64,000 bases of DNA from Phycisphaera sp. (GCA_016125285.1 WGMA01000046.1:1-64000); one strand, 5' to 3'. Shown: positions 29,758-47,736, counted from the first letter of the stretch. Notes: a model not told the origin generated them from the sequence alone. Numbers and translations: made by a program.

Positions 29758-31895
29758 TGCATCAGGTCATTCAAAACATCCGCAGCGGTGAGCTGAGCGT
29801 GCGGCAGACGCCGGACCCGGTGGCGTTGCGCGGCGAGGTGCTGATCGCCAACGCGGCGAGCGTGATCTCGGCCGGGACGGAGAAGGCTGCGATCGAGCTG
29901 GCGCGCAAGTCGTTGATCGGCAAGGCGGTCGATCGGCCGGATCACGTGCGGCGCGTCTTGCAGAAGCTGCGCAGCGACGGGCTGGGCGCGACGGTGCGTG
30001 CGGTGCGTGCGCGGCTCGACGAGCCGATGACGATGGGGTACGCGTCGGCCGGCGTCGTGCTGGAGGTCGGGCCGGGCGTGCAGGCATACAAGCCGGGCGA
30101 TCGCGTCGCGTCGAACGGGGCGCACGCGGGCGTTGTCGCCGTGCCCGAAAACCTGTGCGCACGCGTGCCAAACGGCGTGGTGCTGGAGCACGCGGCGTTC
30201 GCCACGCTCGGCGCGATCGCGATGCACGGCGTGCGGCTCTCACGTGCGGTGCTTGGCGAGACGGTGTTCGTCGTCGGCCTCGGCCTCGTGGGGCAGCTGA
30301 CGGTAGCGATGTTGCACGCGGCGGGGTGTCGGGTCGTCGCGACCGACCTCGACGCCACGCGGTGTGACCTCGCGCGTCACATGGGCGCCGACGCCGCCGA
30401 CACGTCGGTCGACGCCGCGCGCGTCACGCAGCTAACCAACGGCCTCGGCGCCGACGCGGTCATCATCACGGCGTCGACGCGTGACAGCCAGCCGATCGAC
30501 CTCGCGGTGGAGGCAGTCCGCAAGAAGGGCCGCGTGGTGCTCGTCGGCGTCGCGGACATCGCGTTCGATCGCCGCGCGCTCTATCACAAGGAGGCGGAGT
30601 TCGTCGTGTCGTGTTCGTACGGGCCCGGCCGGTACGACGCCGAGTACGAGCAACGCGGACACGACTATCCCGCAGCGTACGTGCGGTGGACCGAGCAGCG
30701 CAACATGCAGGCGGTGATCGACATGATGGCCGGCGGCCGGCTCGATGTTGCGCCGCTGATCACGCACCGCTTCGCGATCGAGCACGCGGAAGAGGCGTAC
30801 GCCCTGATCGAGCGCGGCGGCGAGCCGACGCTCGGCGTTGTGCTGACGTACCCGAGCGTGACGGCCGACACGCTGCGGCGTCGCGTCGAGCTCAACGCCG
30901 CACCGACCAACGCGAAGGTACGCATCGGCGTGATCGGCGCGGGCGCGTACGCGCGGTCGGTCATGCTGCCGGCGCTGCGGGCGCAGCAGGGCGTCGACCT
31001 CGTGACGATCAGCTCGGCGCACGGCGCCAACGCGACGCAACTCGGCGAGCAGTACGGCTTCCGCGCCGTGGCGAGCGACGCCCACGCGGTGATCAATGAC
31101 GCCAACGTCAACACGGTCATGATCCTTACGCGGCACGGGCAGCACGCGGAGCAGGTCGTCGCGGCGATCCGGGCCGGGCGTCACGTCTTCGTCGAAAAGC
31201 CGCTCTGCCTGACCGACGCGGAACTCGACACGATCGAGCAGGCGTTGATCGACACGGGCGCCGCGCGGCCACTGCTCACCGTTGGGTTCAACCGGCGATT
31301 CGCCCCGGCGACCGACGCGATACGCGCGGTGTTCGACGGCGTGTCGGCTCCGCTGACGGTGTCGATCCGCATGAACGCCGGGCCGATCGACCCGCAGCAC
31401 TGGACGCAGGACGAGGTCGAGGGCGGCGGGCGGATCATCGGCGAGGCGTGCCACGCGATCGACCTGGCGACACACCTCGTCGGCGCGCCGCCGGTGCGCG
31501 TCTACGCGGAATCGGTCGGCGGGCCGAACGCGCCGACGGTGACCGACGACCAGTGCTTCATCACGCTGCGGCACGCGAACGGATCGGTGTCGAACATCGC
31601 GTACCTGGCCGGGGGCGATCGCGCGTTCGGCAAGGAGCGCGTCGAAGTGATCGGCGGGGGTCGGGTGGCGGTGATCGACGACTTCAAAAGCGTCACGAGT
31701 TGCGTCGATGCCCGGACGCGCACGCACAAGGTGGCGACGGATAAGGGTCACGCCGCGTGCGTGGCCGCGTTCGTTGAGGCGGTGCGGACTACGGGCGTGG
31801 CGCCGATCGCGTGGTCCGACCTGCGTGCGGTGACGCTCGCTTCCATTCACGCCGTGACGAGCCTGCGCAGCGGCGAGCCTGTTGAACTGACATGA
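29757..31895 (+). CDS. Two-domain oxidoreductase: MDR dehydrogenase fused to Gfo/Idh/MocA dehydrogenase
   Basis: The 712-residue product joins a medium-chain alcohol-dehydrogenase-like domain (about 1-360) with the NAD-binding segment VFVVGLGLVGQLTVAML to a Gfo/Idh/MocA domain (about 375-712) with IGVIGAGAYARSVMLPALRA, HVFVEKPLCLTD and GFNRRFAPATDAI. Such bi-domain oxidoreductases are common in bacterial polysaccharide loci next to a heparinase-like gene, as here, but their substrate is not established. The EKP motif of the Gfo/Idh domain is intact. The start at ATG 29757 shares one base with the preceding stop. Confidence 0.9.
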   Translation: MHQVIQNIRSGELSVRQTPDPVALRGEVLIANAASVISAGTEKAAIELARKSLIGKAVDRPDHVRRVLQKLRSDGLGATVRAVRARLDEPMTMGYASAGVVLEVGPGVQAYKPGDRVASNGAHAGVVAVPENLCARVPNGVVLEHAAFATLGAIAMHGVRLSRAVLGETVFVVGLGLVGQLTVAMLHAAGCRVVATDLDATRCDLARHMGADAADTSVDAARVTQLTNGLGADAVIITASTRDSQPIDLAVEAVRKKGRVVLVGVADIAFDRRALYHKEAEFVVSCSYGPGRYDAEYEQRGHDYPAAYVRWTEQRNMQAVIDMMAGGRLDVAPLITHRFAIEHAEEAYALIERGGEPTLGVVLTYPSVTADTLRRRVELNAAPTNAKVRIGVIGAGAYARSVMLPALRAQQGVDLVTISSAHGANATQLGEQYGFRAVASDAHAVINDANVNTVMILTRHGQHAEQVVAAIRAGRHVFVEKPLCLTDAELDTIEQALIDTGAARPLLTVGFNRRFAPATDAIRAVFDGVSAPLTVSIRMNAGPIDPQHWTQDEVEGGGRIIGEACHAIDLATHLVGAPPVRVYAESVGGPNAPTVTDDQCFITLRHANGSVSNIAYLAGGDRAFGKERVEVIGGGRVAVIDDFKSVTSCVDARTRTHKVATDKGHAACVAAFVEAVRTTGVAPIAWSDLRAVTLASIHAVTSLRSGEPVELT

Positions 31896-33733
31896 CACGG
31901 ACGGCAACCCATGTGTGGCGACCGCCGGATGAGCCTCAAGCCCCAACAGCGAGGAACGCGGTGAGCCTCGGCCAACTGCTGCGCACCGCGGTGCGCCTGC
32001 GGCCTTCGCAGCTGTGGTGGCGCGTGGTGCGTCGCGCGCAGCGTCGCCTGGGTGCGCCGACGATCGACGTGCCCGCGCTGATCGAGGTGCGCGATGACCT
32101 GCCGCGGCTCGCCGACGTGGGCCACGTGCCCGGGCCGCGCGGCGGCACGCTCGTCGATCAACTCGAGCGCGGCGTGTTCGATCATCTCGGTCAGGCGGTC
32201 GACACCGGCCGCGACACGCCGGACTGGCGGCTGGGCACGCGCGCCCGCGATCGGCTGTGGACCGTTACGCTGCACTACCAGGCGTGGGCGATGGGGCTGG
32301 CGGCGGTCGCGGCCGGCGACCACGACGCGTGCGACGCGAGCGTGCGGGAGCGCGCAGCGAAGCTGCTCGTGCATTACGTCGACGACTGGATCGCGCGGTG
32401 CCGCGTCGAAGACACGGCGGCGCGTGAGCTGGCGTGGAACGCGTACGCGGTCGCGACGCGCCTGGGTTGGTGGGCGCGGCTGTATCACCGGCTCGGTGCG
32501 CCGGGTCGGGCTGACTGGGGCGCGTTCGAGGATCGGTTCCTCCGCAGCGCCTGGACGCAGGCGGCGTATCTGCACGAGCGCGTCGAGTGGGACCTGCTGG
32601 GCAATCACGTGCTGCGCGACGCGGTGGGACTGGCCTGGGCGGGGCGGTGGTTCAAGGGCGACGCGCCGAAGCGGTGGCTGCGTACGGCCGAGACGATCGT
32701 CTCGGCGCAGCTCAACGAGCAGGTATTGCCGGACGGCGGTCACTACGAACGCAGCGCGATGTATCACGTGCACGTGTTGAAGGATCTGTTCGTGCTCGCG
32801 CAGCTGGTCGACAGCGAAACGTTGCGTGGGCGCATCATTGAGGCGTGCGGGCGCATGGCGGAATACCTGGCGTGGGCGCGGCACCCCGACGGCGGCGTGT
32901 GCCTGTTCAATGACGCCACGCTCAATGGATCTGCAGCGCCGATCGACGCGCTGGCCGCGTGCCGCGCGTTGTTCGGCGTCGACGTCGAACCGGACGCGCG
33001 GCGTGGCGGGCGCTACTTTGCAGACACCGGCCTCATCGCGTGGCACGACGACGTGTGGAGCGTGTTCTTCGACGTCGGCCCGATCGCCGCCGACTGTCAG
33101 CCGGGTCACGGGCACGCCGATGCGCTGACGATCGAGGCGTCGTGCCGCGGGCATCGGTTGATCGTCGATCCCGGCGCGTTCGCTTACGACGACGACGCGC
33201 GGCGGCGCTACGACCGCTCGACCGCGGCGCACAACACGGTATGCCTCAACGACGCGGACTCCAGTGAGGTGTGGAGCGTGTTCCGTGTCGGCCGACGTGC
33301 GACGACGACGGTGACGCGCTGCGACCTTGGCGCCTCGGGCGTCACGGCCACGGCGACGCATGACGGTTATCGTCGCCTGCCGGGCCGGCCGATGCACACG
33401 CGGACATTGAGGGTCGGTGCGATCGGTGGCGACGGCGAACGGGTGGTGCGACTGGTCGATCGCGTCGACGGTGACGGATTGCACGCGGTCACCGGCGGAC
33501 TGTTGATCGACCCGGCGTGGTCCGCCGAGCCGGGCGAACGCGGCTGGGCGTTGCGGCACGCCGATGGCGCGCGGGTGACGATTCACGTCGACGGACCCGA
33601 AGGTATCGCACTCTCGACGAGCGACGCGGCGTATCACCCGCGGTTCGGCGAGGAACTCGACGCGACACGGCTGACGTGGCGGTGCCACGGGCATCTACCC
33701 GTCGAGGTCACGGTGACGATCAAGGCAGATTGA
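31892..33733 (+). CDS. Heparinase II/III family protein
   Basis: The 613-residue product has the alpha/alpha toroid followed by the beta-sandwich of heparinase II/III-like lyases. The diagnostic region is CQPGHGHADALTIEASCRGH, then LIVDPGAFAYDDDARRRYDR and STAAHNTVCLNDADSSEVW. The Tyr in HYERSAMYHVHVLKDLF is a likely catalytic residue. Family members cleave uronic-acid-containing polysaccharides by beta-elimination. With wecC making ManNAcA, the locus polymer could itself be the substrate (inference). No signal peptide is visible, which is common for copies in biosynthetic loci. Confidence 0.88.
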   Translation: MTRTATHVWRPPDEPQAPTARNAVSLGQLLRTAVRLRPSQLWWRVVRRAQRRLGAPTIDVPALIEVRDDLPRLADVGHVPGPRGGTLVDQLERGVFDHLGQAVDTGRDTPDWRLGTRARDRLWTVTLHYQAWAMGLAAVAAGDHDACDASVRERAAKLLVHYVDDWIARCRVEDTAARELAWNAYAVATRLGWWARLYHRLGAPGRADWGAFEDRFLRSAWTQAAYLHERVEWDLLGNHVLRDAVGLAWAGRWFKGDAPKRWLRTAETIVSAQLNEQVLPDGGHYERSAMYHVHVLKDLFVLAQLVDSETLRGRIIEACGRMAEYLAWARHPDGGVCLFNDATLNGSAAPIDALAACRALFGVDVEPDARRGGRYFADTGLIAWHDDVWSVFFDVGPIAADCQPGHGHADALTIEASCRGHRLIVDPGAFAYDDDARRRYDRSTAAHNTVCLNDADSSEVWSVFRVGRRATTTVTRCDLGASGVTATATHDGYRRLPGRPMHTRTLRVGAIGGDGERVVRLVDRVDGDGLHAVTGGLLIDPAWSAEPGERGWALRHADGARVTIHVDGPEGIALSTSDAAYHPRFGEELDATRLTWRCHGHLPVEVTVTIKAD

Positions 33734-35046
33734 TGCGGATCCTCTACGTTTCACAGTATTTTCCCCCCGAGGTGTGTGCGCCGGCGGCGCGCGTGTACGA
33801 CCTGTCGCGGCAGTGGGTGCGCCAGGGGCACGACGTGACGGTGCTCACGGCGTTCGCGCATCATCCGACGGGCGTCAAGGCGAAGGCGGATCGCTGGACT
33901 CTGACACGGCGGGAGCGTGTCGACGACATCGACGTCGTGCGGACGTACGTGTACGCCACGCCGAACGAGGGCGTGGTGCGGCGCATGATGTCGTACGCGA
34001 GCTTCATGACATCGGCGGGCGTGATCGGCGCGGCGCGTGCGGCCCGGCCGGACGTGGTGATCGCGACGTCACCGCAGCTGCTGACCGGCGTGGCGGGATG
34101 GGCGCTGGCCAAGCGGTTCGGCGTGCCGTTCGTCTTCGAGGTGCGCGACCTCTGGCCGGAGTCGATCCTCGCGGTCGACGCGATGCGCGACAACGCAGTG
34201 ATCCGCGGTCTCAAGCGCGTCGCGGCGTTCCTCTACCGACGCAGCGATGCGATCGTGACCGTCGGCGACGGCTACCGGCGACAGCTCGGTGAGCTGTACG
34301 GCGTGCCCGCCGACAAGGTGCGTGTGATCCCCAACGGCGTCGACCCCGAGCTGTTCACGCCGGGCGATCGCGACAACGACGTCCGCCGCGCGATGGGGTG
34401 GGGCGACAAGCGTGTGGCGATGTACATCGGCACGATCGGCATGGCGCACGGGTTGGAGACGGTGCTCGACGCCGCGGCGCAACTTCGCGACCGGCGGGCC
34501 GACATCGTGCTCGCGCTCGTGGGCGAGGGCGCGGACAAGGCGCGGCTCAAGCAATGCGCCGCCGAGCGCGGCCTCAACAACGTGTGCTTCGTCGATCTGC
34601 AGCCCAAGCAGCGCATCCCCGCGTATTACGCCGCGTGTGACGTCGGCCTGGTGTGCCTGCGCGACGCTGAGCTGTTCCGGCACGTGCTGCCGTCGAAGCT
34701 GTTCGAGTACATGGCGATGGCCCGACCGGTGCTGATCAACGTGGACGGCGACGCGCGGCGGCTGGTGGAATCCGCGGGCGCGGGCCTGTTTGTCGAACCG
34801 AACGACGCGGCGGCGCTCGCGGGGACGATCGCCCGGTGCGTCGACGACGCGCCGGGCCTCGAGCGCATGGGCGCGGCGGGGCGCGCGTGCGCCACCGAGC
34901 GTTACACGCGTCCGGCACAGGCGACGCAGTACATCGAGCTGCTGCGATCGCTCGTCGACCCGAGGCCCGAGGCGGACGCGACATCGGACACCGACATGGA
35001 CAAATCAATGAAACCTTCGACACGACAGGTGGTGTCCGGTGACTGA
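33733..35046 (+). CDS. Glycosyltransferase family 4, WbuB-like
   Basis: The 437-residue product begins MRILYVSQYFPPEVCAPAAR, the hallmark of WbuB-type transferases of O-antigen loci. It also has VLTAFAHHPTG, FVFEVRDLWPESILAVDAM, VIPNGVDPELFTPG, AMYIGTIGMAHGLETVLDAA and LPSKLFEYMAMARPVLIN. WbuB proteins transfer N-acetylfucosamine-type sugars in E. coli; the sugar here is unknown. It overlaps the wecC start by 8 bp. Confidence 0.88.
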   Translation: MRILYVSQYFPPEVCAPAARVYDLSRQWVRQGHDVTVLTAFAHHPTGVKAKADRWTLTRRERVDDIDVVRTYVYATPNEGVVRRMMSYASFMTSAGVIGAARAARPDVVIATSPQLLTGVAGWALAKRFGVPFVFEVRDLWPESILAVDAMRDNAVIRGLKRVAAFLYRRSDAIVTVGDGYRRQLGELYGVPADKVRVIPNGVDPELFTPGDRDNDVRRAMGWGDKRVAMYIGTIGMAHGLETVLDAAAQLRDRRADIVLALVGEGADKARLKQCAAERGLNNVCFVDLQPKQRIPAYYAACDVGLVCLRDAELFRHVLPSKLFEYMAMARPVLINVDGDARRLVESAGAGLFVEPNDAAALAGTIARCVDDAPGLERMGAAGRACATERYTRPAQATQYIELLRSLVDPRPEADATSDTDMDKSMKPSTRQVVSGD

Positions 35047-36388
35047 CGCGTGTGTGATCGGGCTCGGGTATGTGGGGCTGCCGACGGCGTCGCTGATGGC
35101 GACGGCGGGGTTGCATGTGGTCGGCGTCGACGTCAACGCGGAGCGGGTCGACGCGATCGAGCGCGACGAGGTGGTGATGGACGAGGCGGGGCTGGGCACG
35201 CTGGTGTCGGCGGCGCGCAAGAGCGGCAACCTGCGGGCGTCGATCGAGCCCGTCGAGGCGGAGGTGTTCGTGATCTGCGTGCCGACGCCGGTGACCGGCG
35301 ATCAACACGCCGACCTGAGCATGGTGGAGGCCGCGGCCCGTGCGATCGCGCCGCTCGTTCGCCCGGGCAATCTCGTCATCCTCGAGTCGACGTCACCGAT
35401 CGGCACGACACGCAACGTGGTCGGCGGGGCGCTGCGTGACGCGGGTCTGGCGCCGGGCGTCGACGTGCACCTTTGCTACTGCCCCGAGCGGGTGCTGCCG
35501 GGCAACACGGTCGCCGAGCTGATCAACAACCACCGGGTCATCGGCGGGGTCACCGAGCGTTGCGCCAGGCGCGCCCGCGACATGTACGCTCGGTTCTGCC
35601 AGGGCGAGATCACGACCACCGACGACCTGACGGCCGAGATGGTCAAGCTGACGGAGAACACGTTCCGCGACGTCAACATCGCGTTGGCCAACACGCTGGC
35701 GCGGATCGCCGAGGACGCCGGCGTCGACGTTTGGCGCGTGATCGAATTGGCGAACCGCCACCCGCGCGTCAACGTGCACCAGCCCGGGCCCGGCGTGGGT
35801 GGGCACTGCATCCCGGTCGATCCGTGGTTCCTGGTTGACGGGTTCCCGCGTCACGCGCAGCTGATCACCGAGGCGCGCACGATCAACGACACGCAGCCGC
35901 GGCGCGTGCTCGACCGACTCGTCGCGATCGGCGCCGTTCGGCCCGGCGACACGATCGCGATCCTCGGCGCGGCGTACAAGGCGGACATCGACGACAGCCG
36001 ATCGAGTCCCGGCGCGGCGCTCGCAGCGGTCGCACGCGAAGCCGGGTTCGACACAAGACTGCACGACCCGCGCGCCCGTCGCCAGCACCCCGGCGACGAG
36101 CCGATCACACGCGACCTGACCGCGGCGCTGCAGGGCGCGGCGGCGGCGGTGGTCTGCACCGATCACGCCGAATATCGCCGATTGACACCCGCGGTGTTCA
36201 CCGAACACATGGCCGGGCGCGTGCTCTTTGACGCACGCCGCTGCCTTGACCCGGGCGCGTTCATCGCGGCGGGCTTCACCTTGCTCGCGATCGGCGTCGG
36301 CGACGCCGCACCTGTCTCGCCGCCGCTTGCCGCTGCCGACGCGACGCGCGCCGACGTGGCCGCGTCAAACGATCCCAAGTCATGCTGA
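35039..36388 (+). CDS. wecC: UDP-N-acetyl-D-mannosamine dehydrogenase
   Basis: The enzyme oxidises UDP-ManNAc to UDP-ManNAcA using NAD. The 449-residue product has the N-terminal Rossmann motif VIGLGYVGLPTASLMA, ESTSPIGTT, CYCPERVLPGN, the central helix TAEMVKLTENTFRDVNIALA, and the active-site cysteine in GPGVGGHCIPVDPWFL. The last segment ILGAAYKADIDDSRSSP fits the UDP-binding domain. The start is GTG 35039. With wecB in the same run this gives a two-step route from UDP-GlcNAc to an acidic sugar donor. Confidence 0.93.
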   Translation: MTDACVIGLGYVGLPTASLMATAGLHVVGVDVNAERVDAIERDEVVMDEAGLGTLVSAARKSGNLRASIEPVEAEVFVICVPTPVTGDQHADLSMVEAAARAIAPLVRPGNLVILESTSPIGTTRNVVGGALRDAGLAPGVDVHLCYCPERVLPGNTVAELINNHRVIGGVTERCARRARDMYARFCQGEITTTDDLTAEMVKLTENTFRDVNIALANTLARIAEDAGVDVWRVIELANRHPRVNVHQPGPGVGGHCIPVDPWFLVDGFPRHAQLITEARTINDTQPRRVLDRLVAIGAVRPGDTIAILGAAYKADIDDSRSSPGAALAAVAREAGFDTRLHDPRARRQHPGDEPITRDLTAALQGAAAAVVCTDHAEYRRLTPAVFTEHMAGRVLFDARRCLDPGAFIAAGFTLLAIGVGDAAPVSPPLAAADATRADVAASNDPKSC

Positions 36389-37941
36389 TCGTCATCTCCA
36401 TCACGTTTATCGCGGCGCTGTCGCTTTCGCTGGTCCTCACGCCGCTCGCGGCGCGAACGGCGCTGCGTGTCGGGCTCGTCGATCGACCCTCCAGGCATCG
36501 CGCCGGCGGCAGCCGCGTCGTGCCGCGCGCCGGCGGCTATCCGCTGGCGATCGGCGTCTGGGGCGCCATCGGCGTGATGGCGCTCTTCAGCGAGTCGACG
36601 CGCCGAATGCTCGAGCACCGGCCCGAACTGCTCGGCGCTCTGATCGCCGCGGGCCTCGTGATGTTCATTCTCGGCGCGATCGACGACCTGCGTGACCTGA
36701 CTCCGAAGCTGAAGCTCGCGGTGCAGCTGCTGGTCGCCGCGGGCGTGCTCGCCGCGGGGCTGGGCTTCGATCGTATCACGCTGCTGGACCTGCCGATGAT
36801 CCACCTCGGCTGGCTCGCCGCGCCGATCACCGTGATGTGGATCGTCGGCGTCACCAACGCGATGAACCTGATCGACGGCGTCGACGGCCTGGCGCTGACG
36901 ACCACGGCGTTGATCTCCGCGGCGATCGGTTTCATCGCGTATCAGCAGGGCAACACCGGCGCGGCGGCGATGGCGGCGGCGCTCACCGGGTCATCGTTCG
37001 GCGTGCTCCGCAGCAACTTTGCGCCGGCGAAGGTGTTTCTCGGTGACGCCGGCTCGCTGTTCGCCGGCTCGTCGCTGGCCGTCCTCTCGCTCGGCGTCAG
37101 CGCGAAGGGGGCGGTCGCGGGCTCGATGCTGATCCCCGTGCTGCTGCTCGGCTATCCGATCCTCGACACGCTGCTGGTCATGCTGCGTCGCTGGCTCAGC
37201 GGCAAGTCGATCCTCTCCGGCGACCAGGGGCACATCCACCACCGCATGCTCGAGCGCGGCATGAAGCACAGCCAGATCACCATCGTGCTCGCGGTGTTCA
37301 CGATGATGCTGTGCTACCTCGGCGTGTGCATCGCGGCGGGCTCGGCGTACCTGTCGACGCTCGGCCTGATCCTCGTCGGTGCGTTCGTGTTCATCGGGTC
37401 ACGCGTGCTGGGATATCCGAGCCACCTGTCCGTGCGCAAGCTGCGGCGCTGGAGCCCGCGCTTCCGCGCCGTGCGTTACCAGTCACGCCTGGCGTGCGTC
37501 GACATGGAGCTGGCGGGCGACCTCGACGGCGCGTTCAGCGTGTTGCAACGCGTCGGCAAGCTCTACGGGGTGGCCCGTTTCACGATCCTTCTGCCGCCCG
37601 GCGACGCAGACAACGGCGCGGCGCGCCCCGCTCCGCGTCGACGCATCGTCATGTCGTTCGACAACGCGACCGCTCGACTCGGCGCGCGGCACGCCGGTTG
37701 GCATCACGACGTCTACCGTGACGCCGCGTCGGGTTTCGCGGTGCGTACGCTCGTGCCCTGCGACACGGTCGAGCGCGAGTATCAGCTCGAGTGCCGCATC
37801 GCGGTCGGCCGGGTGCTCCGCGCGATGGCGCGGCGCCTGAGGGACCTCGACCGGTCGCCGGGCGAGGCGACGTACGATGACAACACTGACACGACGGCCG
37901 GCGCGGCGACCCATACCGGCAAGCCGGGCGAGGCCGCCTGA
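36382..37941 (+). CDS. WecA/TagO-like undecaprenyl-phosphate N-acetylhexosamine-1-phosphate transferase with C-terminal extension
   Basis: These MraY-family membrane enzymes start glycan synthesis by attaching a sugar-1-phosphate to undecaprenyl phosphate. Residues 1-345 hold about ten membrane segments and the family motifs: the acidic pair in GAIDDLRDLTPKLKLAVQ, NAMNLIDGVDGLAL, VFLGDAGSLFAGS and DQGHIHHRMLERGMKHSQ. An additional soluble region of about 170 residues (345-519) follows, beginning SVRKLRRWSPRFRAVRYQSR. It is not part of the usual enzyme, and I do not recognise it. The gene overlaps wecC by 7 bp. Confidence 0.9.
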   Translation: MLIVISITFIAALSLSLVLTPLAARTALRVGLVDRPSRHRAGGSRVVPRAGGYPLAIGVWGAIGVMALFSESTRRMLEHRPELLGALIAAGLVMFILGAIDDLRDLTPKLKLAVQLLVAAGVLAAGLGFDRITLLDLPMIHLGWLAAPITVMWIVGVTNAMNLIDGVDGLALTTTALISAAIGFIAYQQGNTGAAAMAAALTGSSFGVLRSNFAPAKVFLGDAGSLFAGSSLAVLSLGVSAKGAVAGSMLIPVLLLGYPILDTLLVMLRRWLSGKSILSGDQGHIHHRMLERGMKHSQITIVLAVFTMMLCYLGVCIAAGSAYLSTLGLILVGAFVFIGSRVLGYPSHLSVRKLRRWSPRFRAVRYQSRLACVDMELAGDLDGAFSVLQRVGKLYGVARFTILLPPGDADNGAARPAPRRRIVMSFDNATARLGARHAGWHHDVYRDAASGFAVRTLVPCDTVEREYQLECRIAVGRVLRAMARRLRDLDRSPGEATYDDNTDTTAGAATHTGKPGEAA

Positions 37942-37942
37942 C

Positions 37943-38884
37943 ATGCAGACAACGGACACCAACCCGACAGCCGTTGAAGGCCCGTCCACGCCGACGACGA
38001 TCGACGCTTCGGCATCCACGCCCGACGCGGAACACGAGCCCGTGCAACACGCAGCGAGCGAGCCGCACCCGCCCGCGTCTCGACCGCCGCGACGACGCAT
38101 CACGATCGTCGCTGCGGTCACGCTCGGCCTGTGCGCGTCCGGCGCGCTCGCGTTGACGACGCCGATGGATCCGCTCGGCTGGTGCTTCGCGTTGGCGACG
38201 CTCGGCGTGATGCTGCGTTGGGTCGGCGCACGCCGCACGGGGCTTGCGCTGTTGATCGTCGCGCCGCTGCTGTTGTTCGTTGCCGCGAGCCCCTACGTGG
38301 CCGGCGCACTCTTTGAATCGCTGGAGTCGCGGTACCCGCCGATCCCGGTCGCCGACACGCTGCACGCGGACGTGATCGTCGTGCTCGGCGGCGGCGTGAG
38401 CGCCGCGTACCCGCCGCGGCTGCACCCGGACCTGGGCTCGGCGAGCGATCGCCTGGCGCACGCGGCCCGACTGTACCACGCCGGCAAGGCCCCGCGGCTG
38501 ATCCTCTGCGATTCGACCAGCAGCCCGATGGCGGAGCTGCTCGGCGAGTGGGGCGTGCCCAACTCGGCCATGGTCCTCGAGACCGGCAGCATGAACACGC
38601 ACGAAAACGCCGCGTTCATCGCCGACATGATCAGGTCGCAGCGCATCGAAGGCGTGCTGCTGGTGACCTCGGCGCTGCACATGCGGCGGGCGCTGGCGAC
38701 GTTCCGCGCCGCCGGCATCGACGCCACGCCCGTGCCGACCGACTTCGAGTACGTGCACGCACCGAACCGGAGGACGTTTCTGAGCGGCGTCGTCCCCAGC
38801 GCCGGCGCACTGCAGTCGACGCAGCGGGCGCTGCACGAGTACGGTGGTTATCTGTATTACCAGTTACGCGGATGGATCAAGTGA
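37943..38884 (+). CDS. YdcF/ElyC-like DUF218 membrane protein
   Basis: The 313-residue product has a disordered Pro/Thr/Ser-rich N-terminus (about 1-50), two or three membrane segments (about 53-125) and a DUF218 domain: DVIVVLGGGVSAAYPP, LAHAARLYHAGKAPRLILCD, ETGSMNTHENAAFIADMI and LLVTSALHMRRALATFRAAG. ElyC/SanA-type proteins are linked to envelope polysaccharide and undecaprenyl-carrier metabolism, which fits its place after the WecA-like gene. The start is ATG 37943. It overlaps the first gene of the RiPP island by 13 bp. Confidence 0.83.
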   Translation: MQTTDTNPTAVEGPSTPTTIDASASTPDAEHEPVQHAASEPHPPASRPPRRRITIVAAVTLGLCASGALALTTPMDPLGWCFALATLGVMLRWVGARRTGLALLIVAPLLLFVAASPYVAGALFESLESRYPPIPVADTLHADVIVVLGGGVSAAYPPRLHPDLGSASDRLAHAARLYHAGKAPRLILCDSTSSPMAELLGEWGVPNSAMVLETGSMNTHENAAFIADMIRSQRIEGVLLVTSALHMRRALATFRAAGIDATPVPTDFEYVHAPNRRTFLSGVVPSAGALQSTQRALHEYGGYLYYQLRGWIK

Positions 38885-39381
38885 CCTCAACGGAAGCGAC
38901 CGACACCGCGCCCCGGCGATCAACGTTGGGCGCGTGGGTCGCGGCGTCACCCGACGACCGTCGACTCGCGACGCGCGCGGCGCTGTGGCTGGTCGTGACG
39001 CGCGTCGCGCTGGCGGTGTCGGGCTACCGCGGCGCACGCCGTGTGCTTCGCCTCGACGCGGCGCGGCCGACGCTCGCGGTTGACGACGATGGCCGCGGCG
39101 ACGGGCCCACCGATCTGCCGCGACGTGTCGGCCGGGCGGTGCGCGCCGCGGCGCGTCGACTGCCGGGACGGTACGCGTGTCTCTGCCAGGCGCTCGTCGC
39201 CGAGCGACTGCTGCGCGCGGCGGGACTCGACGCCAACCTGTCGATCGGCGTCGCGCGACCCGGCGACGCTCCGTCGCTGCGCGGACACGCCTGGCTGACG
39301 TGCGGCGCGACCGTCGTCGTCGGCGACAACGGGGAACGCGACGCCTTCACCGAGCTTCACACGCGGAGCACATGGCCATGA
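38872..39381 (+). CDS. Lasso-peptide-type B2 protease, McjB C-terminal/transglutaminase-like
   Basis: Proteins of this family remove the leader peptide from lasso-peptide precursors. The 169-residue product ends in the McjB C-terminal-like papain/transglutaminase fold: Cys103 in GRYACLCQALVAERLLRAAG, then ANLSIGVA, His139 in LRGHAWLTC and Asp152 in VVVGDNGE form a credible Cys-His-Asp triad. The N-terminal 90 residues are helical and Arg-rich. ATG 38872 or GTG 38881 may be the start; both overlap the DUF218 gene. The PqqD-like gene overlaps its stop as ATGA, matching the split B1/B2 arrangement of many lasso clusters. Confidence 0.85.
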   Translation: MDQVTSTEATDTAPRRSTLGAWVAASPDDRRLATRAALWLVVTRVALAVSGYRGARRVLRLDAARPTLAVDDDGRGDGPTDLPRRVGRAVRAAARRLPGRYACLCQALVAERLLRAAGLDANLSIGVARPGDAPSLRGHAWLTCGATVVVGDNGERDAFTELHTRSTWP

Positions 39382-39686
39382 CCACGCACGTCAACCTGAT
39401 CGACGAACGCTGGCGGCCGCACACCGACATCGTGGGCGAGCGGCTCGACGACGCGTACGTGCTGGCCGACCTCAAGTCGAATCAGATCTACGAGCTCAAC
39501 ACCACGGGCATGCGCCTGTGGCAGCTGCTGTCCGACGGCGCGGATTACGCGACCATCCGCGACCGGCTGCTCGACGAATTCGACGTTGCCGCCGACGCGC
39601 TCGAGGCCGACATCGCCCGCTTGGCCGGTGAACTGGCCGACGCCGGCCTGATCGTTCGCGTGAACGACGCCGCGCCGCCCGCCTGA
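39378..39686 (+). CDS. PqqD-like RiPP recognition protein (B1)
   Basis: PqqD-type RRE proteins bind the leader peptide and present it to processing enzymes. The 102-residue product has the family pattern: DDAYVLADLKSNQIYELNTT, GMRLWQLLSDGADYATIRD and a three-helix part ending LAGELADAGLIVRV. Position and size match the B1 protein of lasso-peptide clusters. The start at ATG 39378 overlaps the protease stop; a second ATG at 39372 is 6 bp upstream. A PqqD-like protein alone could serve other RiPP classes, but here it is flanked by a McjB-like protease and a cyclase. Confidence 0.87.
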   Translation: MTTHVNLIDERWRPHTDIVGERLDDAYVLADLKSNQIYELNTTGMRLWQLLSDGADYATIRDRLLDEFDVAADALEADIARLAGELADAGLIVRVNDAAPPA

Positions 39687-39717
39687 CCACACGCGCTCGA
39701 CAACGACACTGTCACAA

Positions 39718-41637
39718 ATGACTCAACTGCACGCCTCACCCTCGACCGAATCCGGCCAGACGGCAGCCAACGGCTGGGTGGCGTCGTTCGGCGACGTCGC
39801 GCGACTCAGGCCCGATCCGCGTTCGCCGGGGCGAGCCTGCGAGTCGTTGCGGCTCGATCACGACGGCGCCGACGGCTCGGTGGGCCAGGCGACCCGCGGC
39901 CCGGTGACCGTCGTGTTGACCGGCGAGCTCTACGATCGCGACGAGCTCTGCCATCTGGTCGACGACGACGCGCATGACTTGAGCGATGCACACCTTGTCG
40001 CCGCGCTGTATCGCAAGCGTGGGCGCGCCGCGATCGAGGAGCTCAAGGGCGTCTACGCCGTGGTCGTTCACGACGCGGAGCGCCGCGTGCTGCTCGCGCG
40101 ACGTGACACGATGGGCGTCACACCGCTTTTCTATGCGCGATCGAACGGCGTGACCTACTTCGCCACGTCGCTGCGTGCGTTGCTTCGATGCCAGGGCGTA
40201 TCGTCAACACCCAACCGCGCCGCGATCGCGGATCACCTGTGGAACAAGTGGCCGATCGACGACGAGACATTCTATGAAGACATACGCCGCGTGCCGGCCG
40301 CGCACCTGGTGCGCAGCGAAGCCGGCCGTTGGGCGCTCGACCGGCTCGACACCGATCACGTGCCACGCGGTGACATCGAGTGGGACGACGGCGAGGCGTT
40401 TGACGAAGCCTTCACGCGCGCCGTGCGCCGGTGCGCCGGGGCGGGTCGTGTCGGCGTCTTCCTCAGCGGCGGCCTCGATTCAATCAGCGTGGCCTCGACA
40501 CTGGTCGACCTCCAACCGACCGAAACGCCGCTCGCCCTCTCGCTCACGTTCCCCACGCCCGACACCGACGAGTCGGCCATCCAGCGCCACGTCGCCGCGA
40601 CGCTCGGCGTGTCGCAGACGGCGATCCCGCTGAGCGAGGCGGCGGGCTCGGCGGACATCCTTTCCGCGTCGCTGGAGACCGTGGCGAACTGGCCTACGCT
40701 GCTGTCGAACTTCTGGCTCCCGGCGTACCGTCGGCTCGCGGAGATCGCACGCGAGCAGGGCTGCGACACGGTGCTCACCGGCAACGGCGGCGACGAGTGG
40801 CTCGGCGTCACACCGGAACTCGCCGCCGATCTGATCCGCCGTTTCCACTGGCGTCGGCTCGCGCACTTCATCGCCGCGGAGGCCCGGTCGTTTCCGGTTT
40901 CCCGCACACTCCTGGCATGGCGGACGCTGGTGCGGTTCGGCGTCAAGCCGCTGGCCGTGCGCGGGATCGATCGCGTCGCGCCCGGCGCGATGCGAAATCG
41001 GAGACGCGGGCGGTTCCTGGCGTCGATGCCCGACTGGCTGGCGCCCGACCCGGCCTTGCGTGCGCAGCTTCGCGAGCGGCTCGACGCGTGGATCGACCGG
41101 CAATACCCGCAGCGTCGGCCGCGCGGGCCGTACGGCTTTTACCTGCGATGCATCGAAGAGTCGTACACGCACCCGCTGCACTCGATGGAGATGGAAGACG
41201 CGGCCGAGATGACACGCCCGATCGGCCTCCGCCTGCGACACCCGTATTGGGACCCGAACCTGATCCGCGTGCTGGTGCGCACGCGGCCGGAGTCCCTCAT
41301 GGCCGGCGGACGCGCCAAGGGGCTGATCCGCGACCGCCTGGACCGGCGATTTCCCAACGGCGATCTACGTCGACAACGCAAGAATCTATCGACCGTGTTC
41401 GCCACGGATATGATCCAGAACAGCGCGGACGTCTGGCTCGACCGTACCCGTGGCCTTAGAATGTTGTCGGAGATGGGTATCGTCGATACACCCGTGGCCT
41501 ACCTGCGAGACGCCGACTCGGATGTGACCGAGACGCGTCGGGGACGTGCATTTCGACTGTGGGCACTACTGAATGCCGAGTGCTGGCTCAACGGCGCCGA
41601 TGCCCGCACGGCCGGAGGAGAAAACAGACATGGCTGA
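39718..41637 (+). CDS. Asparagine-synthetase-like lasso cyclase (McjC-type)
   Basis: Lasso cyclases adenylate an Asp/Glu side chain of the core and form the macrolactam. The 639-residue product has the glutaminase-like N-terminal domain (VVLTGELYDRDEL, ELKGVYAVVVHDAERRVLLA, RRDTMGVTPLFYA) but no Cys at position 2, so it should not hydrolyse glutamine. The C-terminal synthetase domain has the PP-loop SGGLDS at residues 250-255 and TGNGGDEWLG. Loss of the Cys nucleophile is the rule for McjC-type enzymes. The precursor gene overlaps its stop by 8 bp. A true glutamine-dependent asparagine synthetase is unlikely on this evidence. Confidence 0.85.
   Translation: MTQLHASPSTESGQTAANGWVASFGDVARLRPDPRSPGRACESLRLDHDGADGSVGQATRGPVTVVLTGELYDRDELCHLVDDDAHDLSDAHLVAALYRKRGRAAIEELKGVYAVVVHDAERRVLLARRDTMGVTPLFYARSNGVTYFATSLRALLRCQGVSSTPNRAAIADHLWNKWPIDDETFYEDIRRVPAAHLVRSEAGRWALDRLDTDHVPRGDIEWDDGEAFDEAFTRAVRRCAGAGRVGVFLSGGLDSISVASTLVDLQPTETPLALSLTFPTPDTDESAIQRHVAATLGVSQTAIPLSEAAGSADILSASLETVANWPTLLSNFWLPAYRRLAEIAREQGCDTVLTGNGGDEWLGVTPELAADLIRRFHWRRLAHFIAAEARSFPVSRTLLAWRTLVRFGVKPLAVRGIDRVAPGAMRNRRRGRFLASMPDWLAPDPALRAQLRERLDAWIDRQYPQRRPRGPYGFYLRCIEESYTHPLHSMEMEDAAEMTRPIGLRLRHPYWDPNLIRVLVRTRPESLMAGGRAKGLIRDRLDRRFPNGDLRRQRKNLSTVFATDMIQNSADVWLDRTRGLRMLSEMGIVDTPVAYLRDADSDVTETRRGRAFRLWALLNAECWLNGADARTAGGENRHG
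41614..41620 (+). promoter_or_regulatory. Strong ribosome-binding site of the precursor gene
   Basis: GGAGGAG lies 9 nt before the ATG at 41630, inside the end of the cyclase gene. It is one of the best Shine-Dalgarno matches in the window, and most other genes in the run have weak ones. It supports the reality of this short gene and suggests high translation of the peptide. Confidence 0.8.
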
Positions 41638-41797
41638 CGAGTCCAACAACCAGAAGCCGACCGACAAGCGGGCGTGGCAGCCGATGAAGCTCGAGCACGT
41701 CGGCGACCTGCGCCAGATCGTTCAGGGCGGCGGCGGCAAGCTGTCGCCGACCGGCACCGATCCGGGTGAGATCCGCAAGACCAAGGGCCACGCATAA
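41630..41797 (+). CDS. RiPP precursor peptide, lasso-like
   Basis: This 55-residue peptide lies between the cyclase and the HprK-like kinase genes. Residues 13-31 (KRAWQPMKLEHVGDLRQIV) match the lasso leader pattern YxxPxLxxxGxxxxxT with changes: Trp16 for Tyr, Pro one place early (Pro18), Leu21 and Gly25 conserved, Val31 where Thr is usual. After Gln32 comes Gly33-Gly36, then K-L-S-P-T-G-T-D. If the core starts at Gly36, Asp44 is its ninth residue, as needed for a nine-membered ring. If it starts at Gly33, directly after the leader pattern, no acidic residue falls at positions 7-9. The C-terminal tail is basic (EIRKTKGHA). It overlaps the cyclase stop. Confidence 0.78.
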   Translation: MADESNNQKPTDKRAWQPMKLEHVGDLRQIVQGGGGKLSPTGTDPGEIRKTKGHA

Positions 41798-41829
41798 GTC
41801 CACTGGTTCCGCGCCAAACCACTCAACTC

Positions 41830-42717
41830 TTGCCTCCCTCGATCCACATCCCAACCTGCGCCATCGTTGATGCAACGGCGCGTCGGGTGTCGCGTGGTGC
41901 GCCGTGCCAGACCTGGTGCGACGTTCGAGGCCGCGCCGTGGCGATCGGTGGGCATGCGCACGGACAGTACTGGATGGAGTTCGACGACGCCGTGCGCTAT
42001 TGGTTTGATGAGGCGTGCGGCCCGGTGACCGCTGAGCGGTTCGGCGACATCGACGACGCGATGATTCACGAGCTCTACCACCGCAGCGTCCTGCCGATGG
42101 TGCTGCACGTGTCGGGCCGGCAGGTCCTGCACGCCAGCGCGGTTTACATCGGCGCGGGCGTTGTGGGGATCTGCGGCGTGTCGGGCGCGGGCAAGTCCAC
42201 GCTCGCGTACGCGCTGCAGGGTCGCGGCCAGCGTGTGTGGGCCGACGATGCGTGCTGCCTGAGCATCGCGGAGGATCACATCGATGCGATCGCCCTGCCG
42301 CACGCCGTCAGGCTGACGCCCGAGGCGTTCGACGCGGTGGCGCAGATGCCGCGCGGCGATGAGGGGTTCAGCGTGACGGATCGCGCCGCGCCCGTCCCGG
42401 CGGATTCCGCGCCGCTGACGGCGGTGCTCGTTCTCGAACCGCACGCGACGCCTGACGCCCACGAGGCCGGACCCGTGGTGCGTGCCGATCGCTTGTCGGG
42501 GAAGCGGGCGTTTGCCGCGCTGCTGCCGCACGCGTACACGTTCACGCTCGACGACCCTGGCGTCAGCGGCCCGATGATGCGGCAGTACATGCGCCTCGCC
42601 GCCGCCGTGCCGGTCTATCGCGTGTCGATCCGGCGTGGTTTCGACCTGCTGCCGCGTGCGTGCGACGAGTTGTTGCGGCTCCTCGACGCGACCGCCGTGT
42701 CCACATCACCCCGATGA
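41830..42717 (+). CDS. HprK-like serine kinase (possible RiPP-tailoring kinase)
   Basis: The 295-residue product has the HPr-kinase-type P-loop GVSGAGKST (116-124) in VVGICGVSGAGKSTLAYALQ, then VWADDACCLSIAEDHIDAIA, and the family's C-terminal region with RLSGKRAFAALLPHAYTFTL. HprK-related kinases next to lasso precursors (the paeninodin and thermobacillus-type clusters) phosphorylate or polyphosphorylate a serine of the peptide. Here Ser39 is the only serine after the leader. The most upstream start is TTG 41830 without a clear ribosome-binding site. It overlaps the next gene as ATGA. Confidence 0.82.
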   Translation: MPPSIHIPTCAIVDATARRVSRGAPCQTWCDVRGRAVAIGGHAHGQYWMEFDDAVRYWFDEACGPVTAERFGDIDDAMIHELYHRSVLPMVLHVSGRQVLHASAVYIGAGVVGICGVSGAGKSTLAYALQGRGQRVWADDACCLSIAEDHIDAIALPHAVRLTPEAFDAVAQMPRGDEGFSVTDRAAPVPADSAPLTAVLVLEPHATPDAHEAGPVVRADRLSGKRAFAALLPHAYTFTLDDPGVSGPMMRQYMRLAAAVPVYRVSIRRGFDLLPRACDELLRLLDATAVSTSPR

Positions 42718-43961
42718 ACAACGCCTCGATAGCACGTGTGCTGCTCGCGATCGTCTCGCCGCTCGCCGCGCCGCGCGACGTTCGTCGGAGCCTCGAACGG
42801 TTGTCGGCGCGCGATCGCGCCCGACTCGTTCGCCGCGCCGCGGACGAGGGCCTGGCCCCGTCGCTGCACGCGGCGATCACCGCCTGCGACGCGGCGCACG
42901 TGCTGCCCGATCCGCTCGTCGCGCGCGTGCGCCAACTCGCCACGCACTGCCTGGCGCACAACCTCGCGTTCGGCCGCGCGATCGACGGGATCCTCGACGC
43001 GTTCCGTGATCGCGGCGTTGACGTCGCGCTGCTCAAGGGGTCGCACCTGATCACGCTCAGCCCGCACGCCGCGCGACACCGCCCGATGGTCGACGTCGAC
43101 CTGCTCGTGCCGCGTGCATCCGTGGCCGCCGCGACGCAGCGCCTCGATTCGATCGGGTATCAGCAGGACGCCGCGACGCCCGCGTGGAACGACGACGTGT
43201 TCGGCGATGACTACCATCACGCGCCGGTCTTTGTCGATCCGCGCACCGGGATCCCCATTGAGCTGCATCACGACCTGGCGCCGCGCTACGCGCCCTTCGC
43301 TCTCGACGTCGACGCGATCTGGCGACGGGCCGACACCATCCGGCGCAACGGGCGAGACGTCCGCGTGCTTGCGCCGGACGATCTGCTGCTGCACCTGTCG
43401 CTGCACGCGGCGTTCAACCACAGCCTCGAGGTCGGCGTGCGGCCGCTCGTCGACATCGCCACCGTGATCGACGCGTGCGGCGACGACGTCGACTGGCCGC
43501 GCCTGGTGGACACCGCAACGTGGTGCGGCGGCGGCAAGCACGTGCACCTCATGCTCACGCTCGCCGCGGACCTCGTCGGCGCCGCCGTGCCGGCCGACGC
43601 GCTCGCGCAGCTGCGTCCGGCGGACTTCGACCCGCGTTTCATCGACGTCGCGGCGGATTTCGTGCTCGATCGCCCGCCGTCGGTCGGCGTGCTCGATCAC
43701 CTGGCGCGCGATCGCCGATCGCTCGCCGAACCGGTGGGCGACGCGGACACGCCGCACGTCGGTGAGGGCCTCGGCCGCCGGTGGCGTGCGTTTCGTCGGC
43801 TGTCGGCGCGCGACAAGCTTCGATTCGCGGGACGCGGCGTGTCGCGCGTCGGCGATACGCTCGGCGCCATCGCCTCGGCCGCGGCTCGCGGGCGGCTGAA
43901 CGCGGCGCTCCGCGGCATCGCGGCCCGACGACGCATCGCCGCTTGGACCTGGTCGCGCTGA
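42714..43961 (+). CDS. Nucleotidyltransferase family protein (NTP_transf_5-like)
   Basis: The 415-residue product has the arrangement of the uncharacterised nucleotidyltransferase family PF14907: LARDxFxR-like helices first, then VDVALLKGSHLITL, HRPMVDVDLLVPRASVAAAT with Asp127 and Asp129 as likely metal ligands, and IELHHDLAPRYAPF. Homologues occur beside HprK-like kinases in RiPP clusters and in exopolysaccharide loci, but their substrate is not established to my knowledge. Transfer of a nucleotide to the peptide is a possibility only. The start overlaps the kinase stop (ATGA). Confidence 0.8.
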   Translation: MNNASIARVLLAIVSPLAAPRDVRRSLERLSARDRARLVRRAADEGLAPSLHAAITACDAAHVLPDPLVARVRQLATHCLAHNLAFGRAIDGILDAFRDRGVDVALLKGSHLITLSPHAARHRPMVDVDLLVPRASVAAATQRLDSIGYQQDAATPAWNDDVFGDDYHHAPVFVDPRTGIPIELHHDLAPRYAPFALDVDAIWRRADTIRRNGRDVRVLAPDDLLLHLSLHAAFNHSLEVGVRPLVDIATVIDACGDDVDWPRLVDTATWCGGGKHVHLMLTLAADLVGAAVPADALAQLRPADFDPRFIDVAADFVLDRPPSVGVLDHLARDRRSLAEPVGDADTPHVGEGLGRRWRAFRRLSARDKLRFAGRGVSRVGDTLGAIASAAARGRLNAALRGIAARRRIAAWTWSR

Positions 43962-43981
43962 TCCGATTGCCCGGTACACAC

Positions 43982-44590
43982 ATGCCTTCACCGGAATTCC
44001 TGTCTCGATTCGGCGTGTACATCGCACGCGGCGTGCTCGACGACGCGACGTGCGCCGACATCTGCGGGCGGATGAAGGCCGCGGCACGGAGCGTGGCGAC
44101 CGTATCGGATCCGTCGGGCGCGTACGCGGTCGACACCGCGATCCGCCGCACGCACCTGTGCGACGTCAGCGACGCGGTTGAAGGACGCGTGGCCGATCGT
44201 ATCGCCACATTGATCCCCGCGATCGCGGCGCGACTCGCGGTCGACGCGTCCGATCATCAGCGTCCGCAGTTTCTGTCTTACGCGGTGGGCGATCACTTCA
44301 GTGCGCATCGCGACCACAACGACGAGCCGAACGCCAATCCCGTCTCGCGGGCCCGGCGGATCAGCGTCGTCGTGTTTCTCAACGCGCAATCGGACGAGCC
44401 GGGCGACGGCGTGTTCGGCGGCGGGGAGCTCGTGCTGTACGGCCTGATGCGCAGCCCCGACGCCCGGCGCGTGGGCTTCCCGATCGCCGCCGAGCCCGGC
44501 CTGCTCGTGGCGTTCCGGTCGGACACGCTGCACGAAGTGACGCCCGTGACACACGGGGAACGTTTTACGGTGGTAACGTGGCTGGTATGA
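43982..44590 (+). CDS. 2-oxoglutarate/Fe(II)-dependent oxygenase, prolyl-hydroxylase-like
   Basis: The 202-residue product shows the double-stranded beta-helix iron site in order: His109 and Asp111 in FSAHRDHNDEPN, His184 in SDTLHEVTPVTHG, and Arg194 for 2-oxoglutarate. RRISVVVFLNAQ and GGGELVLYGL are typical P4Hc-family segments. Such enzymes hydroxylate Pro, Lys, Asp or sugars. In this position a peptide substrate is attractive, with Pro40 and Pro45 of the precursor as candidates (inference). The start is ATG 43982, 20 bp after the nucleotidyltransferase stop. Confidence 0.83.
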   Translation: MPSPEFLSRFGVYIARGVLDDATCADICGRMKAAARSVATVSDPSGAYAVDTAIRRTHLCDVSDAVEGRVADRIATLIPAIAARLAVDASDHQRPQFLSYAVGDHFSAHRDHNDEPNANPVSRARRISVVVFLNAQSDEPGDGVFGGGELVLYGLMRSPDARRVGFPIAAEPGLLVAFRSDTLHEVTPVTHGERFTVVTWLV

Positions 44591-45471
44591 TGACTCTGTC
44601 CGGATCCATCACGAGCACGAGTTCAGGGGTCATGTCCGCAAGTGAGACCACGCAAACGGTTGGCGACGGCGCCGTGTCCGTGTCGTCACGCGGCGCGTTG
44701 ACGCTGCGCGCCCGGATCGCCACGCGGCTGCGCAAGTGGGGCTCGACGCACGGCGTGCTCGACGCCGTCGCGCTCGGGCTGCTGCGACCGCCCGACATCC
44801 TTGAGCTGCTGATCCGCAGCTACGCGTACCAGCTCTCGGATTACGACTGCGACGACCCGTTCTCGCCGGAGAGGCAGATCCTGTCCCGGCTCGCCGAACA
44901 CACGTCCGGCCGATCGCTGCTGAGCGTCTTCTGCGGGGCGGGCCGTGACGCGGGCATCTTCTGCGAAGCGGGGTATCGCGTGGTCGGCGTCGACGTTCAG
45001 CCGGGCATGATCGGCCTGGCCCGGCGGAAGGCCGAGGCCGCCGGCTGGGACGCGGAGTTCATCGAGGCGGACATGTACGCGGCGAGCCTGCCCGAGCGCT
45101 ACGACGTGGCGTACCTCTCGCCCGTGATGTACGCCACGCAGCCCACGCGGGCGCTTCGTCGGCGTCTCCTCGACGCGATGGCCTCACACGTCAAGCCCGA
45201 CGGCGTGATTGTCATTTCGGCGCGCACCGCCCCGCCCTCCGACGATGCGCGGTACCGCCGCTACTATCGCGTCGCGCGACTCACCGCGACGCTGACCGCT
45301 GGCTTCCGGCAGATCGTCTACGGCGACCGCTGCGACGGCACGTTCTTCGTCCACCACTATCGGCCGGGCGAGCTTGAGCGCGAACTGGACGTCGCGGGCT
45401 TCGACATCCTCGACGACATCACCGTCGATCGGCACGCCATTCGGTTCCTGATCCTGCGACCCCGCGCGTAG
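44587..45471 (+). CDS. SAM-dependent methyltransferase
   Basis: The 294-residue product is a class I methyltransferase with motif I SLLSVFCGAGRDAGIFCEAG, motif II YRVVGVDVQPGMIGLARRKA, an acidic motif in AEFIEADMYA and MASHVKPDGVIVISAR. A 60-residue Ser/Thr-rich N-terminus precedes the domain; GTG 44578 and ATG 44638 are alternative starts. It overlaps the oxygenase stop as ATGA and is the last gene before the strong terminator. It may act on the peptide or on the polysaccharide. Confidence 0.82.
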   Translation: MMTLSGSITSTSSGVMSASETTQTVGDGAVSVSSRGALTLRARIATRLRKWGSTHGVLDAVALGLLRPPDILELLIRSYAYQLSDYDCDDPFSPERQILSRLAEHTSGRSLLSVFCGAGRDAGIFCEAGYRVVGVDVQPGMIGLARRKAEAAGWDAEFIEADMYAASLPERYDVAYLSPVMYATQPTRALRRRLLDAMASHVKPDGVIVISARTAPPSDDARYRRYYRVARLTATLTAGFRQIVYGDRCDGTFFVHHYRPGELERELDVAGFDILDDITVDRHAIRFLILRPRA

Positions 45472-47627: not shown

Positions 47628-47663
47628 GAATACCTCGACGACGGATGTGACACGCCCGTCGTA

Positions 47664-47730
47664 GGGTCCGCTGTTGCGGAGCGGCTCCGAGGGCGCACGT
47701 CATGTCATACAGGTCCGCAATCGCGGACCC
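47664..47730. repeat. REP-like palindromic element, copy 2
   Basis: This 67-bp element matches copy 1 at 46231-46299 closely: GGGTCCGCTGTTGCGGAGC and GGTCCGCAATCGCGGACCC at the ends, and GGCTCCGAGGGCGC in the middle in both. It lies 6 bp after the stop of the minus-strand gene 47737-49059, the same place relative to its gene as copy 1. Confidence 0.88.
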
Positions 47731-47736
47731 GACGTG

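Follow-up and report, generated by a model that had tools for sequence, protein, structure and literature searches.

A lasso-peptide-like cassette in a polysaccharide locus of Phycisphaera sp. and its relatives in Acidobacteriota

A contig of Phycisphaera sp. (GCA_016125285.1, WGMA01000046.1:1-64000; this 64,000-nucleotide stretch is referred to as the window) carries at 38872-45471 an island of eight co-directional genes, for which a lasso-type pathway for a ribosomally synthesized and post-translationally modified peptide (RiPP) had been predicted from the sequence alone. It differs from a textbook lasso cluster. We favor, with a probability of about 0.55, the reading that it is a RiPP cassette descended from a lasso pathway, belonging to a divergent clade in common with Acidobacteriota and tied to polysaccharide loci, and that its product is a phosphopeptide with an enlarged or shifted ring. 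Descent from a lasso pathway is supported because the leader peptidase (B2) and the PqqD-like protein (B1) match lasso models and solved B1 structures, and because the catalytic residues of B2, the HPr-kinase-like kinase (HprK) and the cyclase (C) are kept across the clade. All eight predicted reading frames were found at their predicted places, and are listed here with the flanking features.

31892..38884 (+): upstream part of the polysaccharide operon (Pfam matches): heparinase-like protein, glycosyltransferase, UDP-sugar dehydrogenase, WecA-like glycosyl transferase family 4, DUF218
38872..39381 (+): B2-type leader peptidase (McjB/transglutaminase-like), Cys103-His139-Asp152; NF033537 86.9 bits, PF13471 84.8 bits
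39372..39686 (+): PqqD-like RiPP recognition element (RRE; B1), ATG at 39372 or 39378; PF05402 54 bits
39718..41637 (+): asparagine-synthetase-like ATP-dependent ligase (C), without N-terminal Cys, SGGLDS and GGDE intact; PF00733 107.6 bits
41630..41797 (+): precursor peptide (A), leader WQPMKLEHVGDLRQIVQ, core GGGGKLSPTGTDPGEIRKTKGHA by canonical spacing; homologues in L051, L098, L099, L121, L122 and L123
41830..42717 (+): HPr-kinase-like kinase, TTG start; PF07475 and TIGR04352 weak, AlphaFold model
42714..43961 (+): NTP_transf_5 nucleotidyltransferase-like protein; PF14907 157.3 bits
43982..44590 (+): 2-oxoglutarate (2OG)-Fe(II) oxygenase; PF13640 (2OG-FeII_Oxy_3) 56.5 bits, HRD motif and distal His/Arg in the sequence
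44578..45471 (+): class I S-adenosylmethionine methyltransferase, GTG at 44578 or ATG at 44590; PF13649 50.7 bits
45522..45578 (+): intrinsic terminator, a long GC hairpin (inverted repeat I1) followed by TTTTTT, at the end of the transcription unit; -45.4 kcal/mol, z = -8.05

Leader peptidase and PqqD-like protein

The first four genes had been read as the B2, B1, C and A components of a lasso cluster. In the McjB-like protease the triad Cys103-His139-Asp152 was found exactly as claimed and is kept in the relatives, and the protein passes the curated lasso B2 model NF033537 with 86.9 bits against a cut-off of 33, the B2 proteins of six clade relatives giving 51-63 bits. The PqqD-like protein qualifies as the RRE (B1) component: it exceeds the PF05402 cut-off, its best NCBIfam match is the lasso PqqD/RRE model, though under the cut-off, and its top Protein Data Bank matches are the solved lasso B1 proteins TbiB1 and TfuB1. 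The assignments of B2 (by the curated model), of B1 (by its nearest structures) and of a real precursor stood, and those of a lasso cyclase and a canonical core did not: for C the asparagine-synthase model outscores the lasso-cyclase model, and the core carries no acid at positions 7-9.

Precursor and conserved core

The 55-residue precursor with lasso-leader features is encoded where predicted, with a GGAGGAG ribosome-binding site ahead of it, and is not a chance frame because Acidobacteriota genomes carry the same core motif between the same two genes. Lasso precursors carry a YxxPxL motif at -17 to -12, and Ile/Val at -2 has been described (PMC10368454). The window leader has the [Y/W]xxPxL pattern with Trp at -17 and Leu at -12, its Pro being at -15 instead of the -14 of the relatives; position -2, which is Thr and rarely Ile or Val in lasso leaders, is Val in the window and Val or Leu in the relatives. 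Core residues were counted from this leader anchor at the canonical spacing, which gives GGGGKLSPTGTDPGEIRKTKGHA for the window.

The window core has acids at 12 and 15 only, and thus no Asp or Glu at 7-9, where the ring acceptor of lasso peptides is located. The same positions, 12 and 15, were found in L051, L122 and L123; the acids are at 10, 12 and 15 in L098, at 11 and 14 in L099, with which the L121 core aligns, and at 1 and 13 in L130. Only L129 (core QTKVSGNVD) has an acid within 7-9 (Asp9). Among the seven core members, Gly2, Lys5, Leu6, the Asp, the Pro directly after it and the Glu are all invariant, and position 7 is Ser or Thr in every one; the conserved Asp is at 11-12, and at 13 in the outlier L130. 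The precursor ends in KTKGHA, without the C-terminal Ser that is the phosphorylation site in paeninodin-like peptides. Since the acid is missing from the usual place of closure, the final shape must be new or shifted. A search of the literature with the core letters gave no match. The tails of the L122 (2448-2639, -) and L123 (114-302, +) precursors, RCEKPHAEKC and RCEKPHASEC, could form a disulfide.

Cyclase

The cyclase lacks the N-terminal Cys, as the original prediction had stated. Model matches of the window protein and three relatives start only at about profile position 60-100, which indicates erosion of the glutaminase-like domain in its N-terminal part. The clade cyclases retain SGGxDS and GGD without exception, and by this invariance C is likely an active ATP-dependent ligase. 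Its structure model resembles TsnB9, beta-lactam synthetase, which forms an intramolecular lactam, and AsnB. The cyclases of the window and the related acidobacterial loci form a single clade (support 100/100), apart from those at other planctomycete and acidobacterial lasso loci.

Relatives and distribution

A cyclase scan of 84,980 species genomes, with matches confirmed by tblastn, yielded one strong relative, with 36% identity, on the acidobacterial contig L051. Between its cyclase and kinase L051 encodes MSLNNQNETSKSMKKTWTKPELKYVGHVGDVLQGGGGKLTPSPADPGESRKPSGVGGEGK, with the core motif of the window. Profiles built from the window and L051, with sampling in Planctomycetota and Acidobacteriota, then detected L098, L099, L121, L122 and L123, so that precursors with the same core are present in six Acidobacteriota genomes, each beside C, HprK and B2 genes and most of them also next to exopolysaccharide or exosortase genes; L129 and L130 have related enzymes and different cores. 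At every clade locus complete there, the precursor is flanked by C and HprK. The gene order in complete clade loci is PqqD-C-A-HprK-B2, and the window has B2 in first place.

The window precursor alone, used as query among the relatives, gave only noise besides itself. In Planctomycetota, a two-sequence precursor profile (392 genomes) and a seven-sequence profile (327 genomes of the class) detected the window only; a weak match of the latter in L133 was rejected as a chance frame. Lasso B2 genes are present in 30 of the 392 Planctomycetota genomes, none with a window-type precursor, and plasmid searches with cyclase, precursor and kinase found no such cassette. Horizontal transfer is likely. 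The core and cyclase clade appears undescribed, and some of its precursors may already figure among the acidobacterial Ile/Val(-2) leaders of PMC10368454.

Further observations were made at these loci. Four acidobacterial loci have a conserved haloacid-dehalogenase-like frame of the LDGTVADMHSALAREVR type close to the cassette: L051 (927-1640), L098 (5295-6062), L099 (10361-11074) and L121 (11694-12440), all on the minus strand. The planctomycete loci L055 (~10617, ~11083), L060 (~9888, -), L070 (7008), L072 (7007) and L077 (~4908, -) carry PqqD-like and/or B2 genes, some with HprK or PF14907, and no recognised cyclase. Core positions 7-9 are free of acids in their precursors, such as FIEPKLTKHGDATKITG|NNGFFSIFKP and YVSPKLETYGSVEELTG|QKTN...SRPFAS, and these loci look like linear phosphopeptide systems with a B2. 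Planctomycete locus L057 encodes three lasso-type precursors (3587, 3975, 5517) with acids at 8-9 and Phe, Leu and Gly as first core residues.

Transcription unit and polysaccharide context

The stops and starts overlap or come close to it: overlaps are found at DUF218/B2 (13 bases), B2/PqqD, C/A, HprK/nucleotidyltransferase and 2OG oxygenase/methyltransferase, and the remaining gaps are 20-35 bases. Upstream of the island, Pfam matches identify a Wza-like export protein, a Wzz-type chain-length determinant with a kinase-like domain, glycosyltransferases, a heparinase-like protein, a UDP-sugar dehydrogenase and a WecA-like transferase. The predicted location on the same strand as these genes is correct, and the overlapping or close junctions suggest the common transcript that had also been proposed, with the island as the last part of the polysaccharide operon. 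A promoter scan of the window gave none above chance level. The hairpin 3' of the methyltransferase was detected by folding; a simple terminator scan did not pick it up because its stem is interrupted. Beyond it, at 46302-49059 (-), two adjoining paralogous genes with DNA blocks 74-82% identical and about 1.43 kb apart represent a tandem duplication.

Polysaccharide, exosortase or PF14907 genes also flank L098, L099, L121, L123 and L129: exosortase and HPr-rel-A genes in L098, and sugar transferase, glycosyltransferase or O-antigen ligase genes in the other four. In Bacilli, lasso clusters with HprK and a nucleotidyltransferase, of unknown role, are located within capsule loci (PMC13381572). 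The polysaccharide linkage in Planctomycetota and Acidobacteriota extends this pattern.

Kinase and tailoring enzymes

The HprK frame has no ATG start, the first start in frame being TTG at 41830. Its sequence matches are weak (PF07475, TIGR04352), and Foldseek aligns its AlphaFold model (predicted local distance difference test, 87.6) to HPr kinases with a probability of 1.00, together with the related phosphoenolpyruvate carboxykinase fold. His101, Lys122, Asp139 and Asp140 are invariant across the clade, so that the HprK fold with His-Lys-Asp-Asp of paeninodin-like kinases is present. The nearest NCBIfam model of the methyltransferase is the daptide methyltransferase (47.9 bits, under the cut-off). 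A possible methyltransferase relative in an open frame beside the L123 B2 was tested, and the match was not significant.

The tailoring set had been called unusually rich, and this holds in part: the combination of HprK, nucleotidyltransferase and polysaccharide locus is already known for Bacilli (PMC13381572), and L125, an acidobacterial locus of the canonical lasso clade, has PqqD, 2OG oxygenase and PF14907 genes adjoining. The L125 gene set shows that the window is not alone in having 2OG tailoring alongside a kinase and a nucleotidyltransferase. The genome of the window carries a second PF14907 gene elsewhere, at L137/L138 (G000:C9:48508-49251), in a region without a reported B2 match.

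Evaluation of alternative products

Several observations weigh against the reading as a lasso-derived cassette. The window cyclase scores 164.2 bits with the asparagine-synthase model TIGR01536 (cut-off 267) and 138.8 bits with the lasso-cyclase model NF033535 (cut-off 525); it thus qualifies neither as a lasso-type cyclase nor, also lacking the glutaminase Cys, as asparagine synthetase B. The original prediction had proposed this comparison as a check on itself, and for the cyclase the result, with both scores below cut-off, went against it. For the window and three relatives, the lasso-cyclase model gave 97-139 bits against 117-164 for the asparagine-synthase model; the order was reversed in six canonical controls (277-454 against 161-271 bits), which are also under 525. 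Asp or Glu at core 7-9 is absent from 8 of the 9 clade precursors and present at 10 of the 11 other cyclase-containing loci (at 10 in the remaining L126; Fisher p = 0.0009 against the clade's 1/9), a comparison for which the loci are partly non-independent, the grouping was made after the data had been seen and some cores were read by eye. The conserved Asp varies between 11 and 12, so that no single ring size can be deduced. Finally, no exporter gene is among the eight genes of the island, the acidobacterial clade loci have no homologues of its 2OG oxygenase and methyltransferase, and the clade has few members, nine loci including the window, mostly from draft genomes.

If B2 cut three residues later, Gly4 and Asp12 would delimit a normal nine-residue ring, and the product would be an ordinary lasso peptide. 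The window segment GKLSPTGTD indeed has nine residues, the spacing is equal in L051, L098, L122 and L123, and two AG[QS]N members would give eight-residue rings, both sizes being normal. However, the spacing of 17 from leader anchor to core is unchanged, all seven core members begin with Gly, Ala or Ser at residue 1, as normal lasso cores do, two members would have Asn as residue 4, and the cyclase is outside the canonical clade; we regard this product as rather unlikely. An unthreaded lactam, with C joining the side chain of Lys5 to Asp11/12 and no lasso, would use two invariant residues 6-7 apart and would need no leader removal, but Lys5 may bind the kinase instead and we know of no asparagine-synthetase-like RiPP enzyme with such use of a Lys side chain, making this lactam quite improbable. 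The missing acid at the canonical ring position and a cyclase far from canonical would also agree with a linear phosphopeptide, for which C would no longer form a ring and the cassette would work as the linear polyphosphorylated peptide (LPP) systems of Bacillota with a B2 peptidase; the cyclase-less loci L055, L060, L070, L072 and L077 likewise lack an acid at 7-9, and LPPs are located in capsule loci (PMC13381572). Such a product is nevertheless unlikely, as C is retained with invariant SGGxDS and GGD in every clade locus complete there and the core Asp-Pro-x-Glu is invariant.

Relationship to the HprK-related systems of exopolysaccharide (EPS) loci had been offered as a fallback, and an HprK-like kinase, a PqqD-like protein and PF14907 do adjoin polysaccharide genes here. 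Membership in the HPr-rel-A system of exosortase/EPS loci is nonetheless highly improbable: TIGR04352 gives 26.6 bits against a cut-off of 200 and TIGR04353 22.3 against 35, and L098 holds both systems separately, its genuine pair (305 and 58 bits) lying apart from its cassette. At 11733-17102 in L098, this pair is accompanied by PF14907 and an exosortase A-like gene, less than 8 kb away from the lasso-like cassette, and the peptide of the HPr-rel-A pair could be encoded by a small frame at 14088-14477 (-).

Proposed pathway

The following pathway is proposed for the favored lasso-derived phosphopeptide, including its substrates, the sequence of its steps, the structure of its product and any link to polysaccharide. 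The PqqD-like protein would bind the W..L...G leader, and B2 would cleave near Q32/G33, as judged from the canonical spacing. Phosphorylated lasso peptides are known to have a kinase, a nucleotidyltransferase and an RRE as partner proteins; from this we infer that HprK adds a phosphate to the core, most likely on the invariant Ser/Thr7, and that the PF14907 protein extends the phosphate, probably with a sugar by analogy with pseudomycoidin. After leader removal, C would adenylate the invariant Asp at core 11-12 and close a lactam, the ring being either 11-12 residues from residue 1, or 8-9 from residue 4 if cleavage is three residues later. The 2OG oxygenase and methyltransferase would be additions specific to the window and encoded on the same transcript. 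The rings of natural lasso peptides have 7-9 residues, and a ten-residue ring was made in vitro with fusilassin enzymes (PMC8498205), so that moderate enlargement is not impossible. We tentatively consider that the system may even be a RiPP class distinct from lasso peptides, with enzymes re-tuned for a larger (11-12) or Lys5-Asp lactam on a phosphopeptide made alongside, and perhaps phospho-sugar-attached to, exopolysaccharide.

Comparison with known systems

PadeK, ThcoK and BsfK are precursor kinases, BsfB1 aids BsfK, and PsmN puts hexoses on phosphoserine (PMC9266682, PMC10368454). The island has in common with the paeninodin, pseudomycoidin and Bsf (Bradymonas) systems a PqqD-like B1, B2, C and an HprK-like kinase with His-Lys-Asp-Asp, and with pseudomycoidin a PF14907-type nucleotidyltransferase (PMC9266682, PMC10368454). 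It also has the [Y/W]xxPxL leader at -17 to -12 of phosphorylated lasso peptides, the hydrophobic -2 of Bsf (PMC10368454) and the polysaccharide-locus setting of those of Bacilli (PMC13381572). In contrast to these, it lacks Asp/Glu at core 7-9, a C-terminal Ser and Ser3, and it has a separate cyclase clade, with an additional 2OG oxygenase and methyltransferase and no exporter among its genes. LPPs of Bacillota likewise combine RRE, HprK and NTP transferase in polysaccharide loci with a precursor lacking the canonical ring acid (PMC13381572), but the island has a B2 peptidase and a C ligase, and no signal-peptidase-like enzyme among its eight assigned genes. Canucin A (CanE, a 2OG hydroxylase) and lassomycin/StspM (C-terminal methylation) have lasso clusters that contain a single 2OG oxygenase or a single methyltransferase (PMC9266682); just the general enzyme class is in common. 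HPr-rel-A systems share a kinase, a PqqD-like protein and PF14907 close to exosortase/EPS genes, but the island is far under both curated cut-offs. Asparagine synthetase B and beta-lactam synthetase share the fold and ATP-PPi motifs of C, which differs in lacking the glutaminase Cys and in its TIGR01536 score (164 against 267).

Significance

What appears new is the core and cyclase clade; the kinase, nucleotidyltransferase and polysaccharide setting are already known from paeninodin-like lasso peptides of Bacilli. If the acceptor Asp has moved to 11-12 while leader recognition, peptidase and ligase were kept, the clade would show what sets the 7-9 limit and whether re-tuning of the ligases is possible. 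With recurrent linkage to polysaccharide and exosortase genes in two further phyla, a role of phosphorylated peptides at the cell surface becomes testable.

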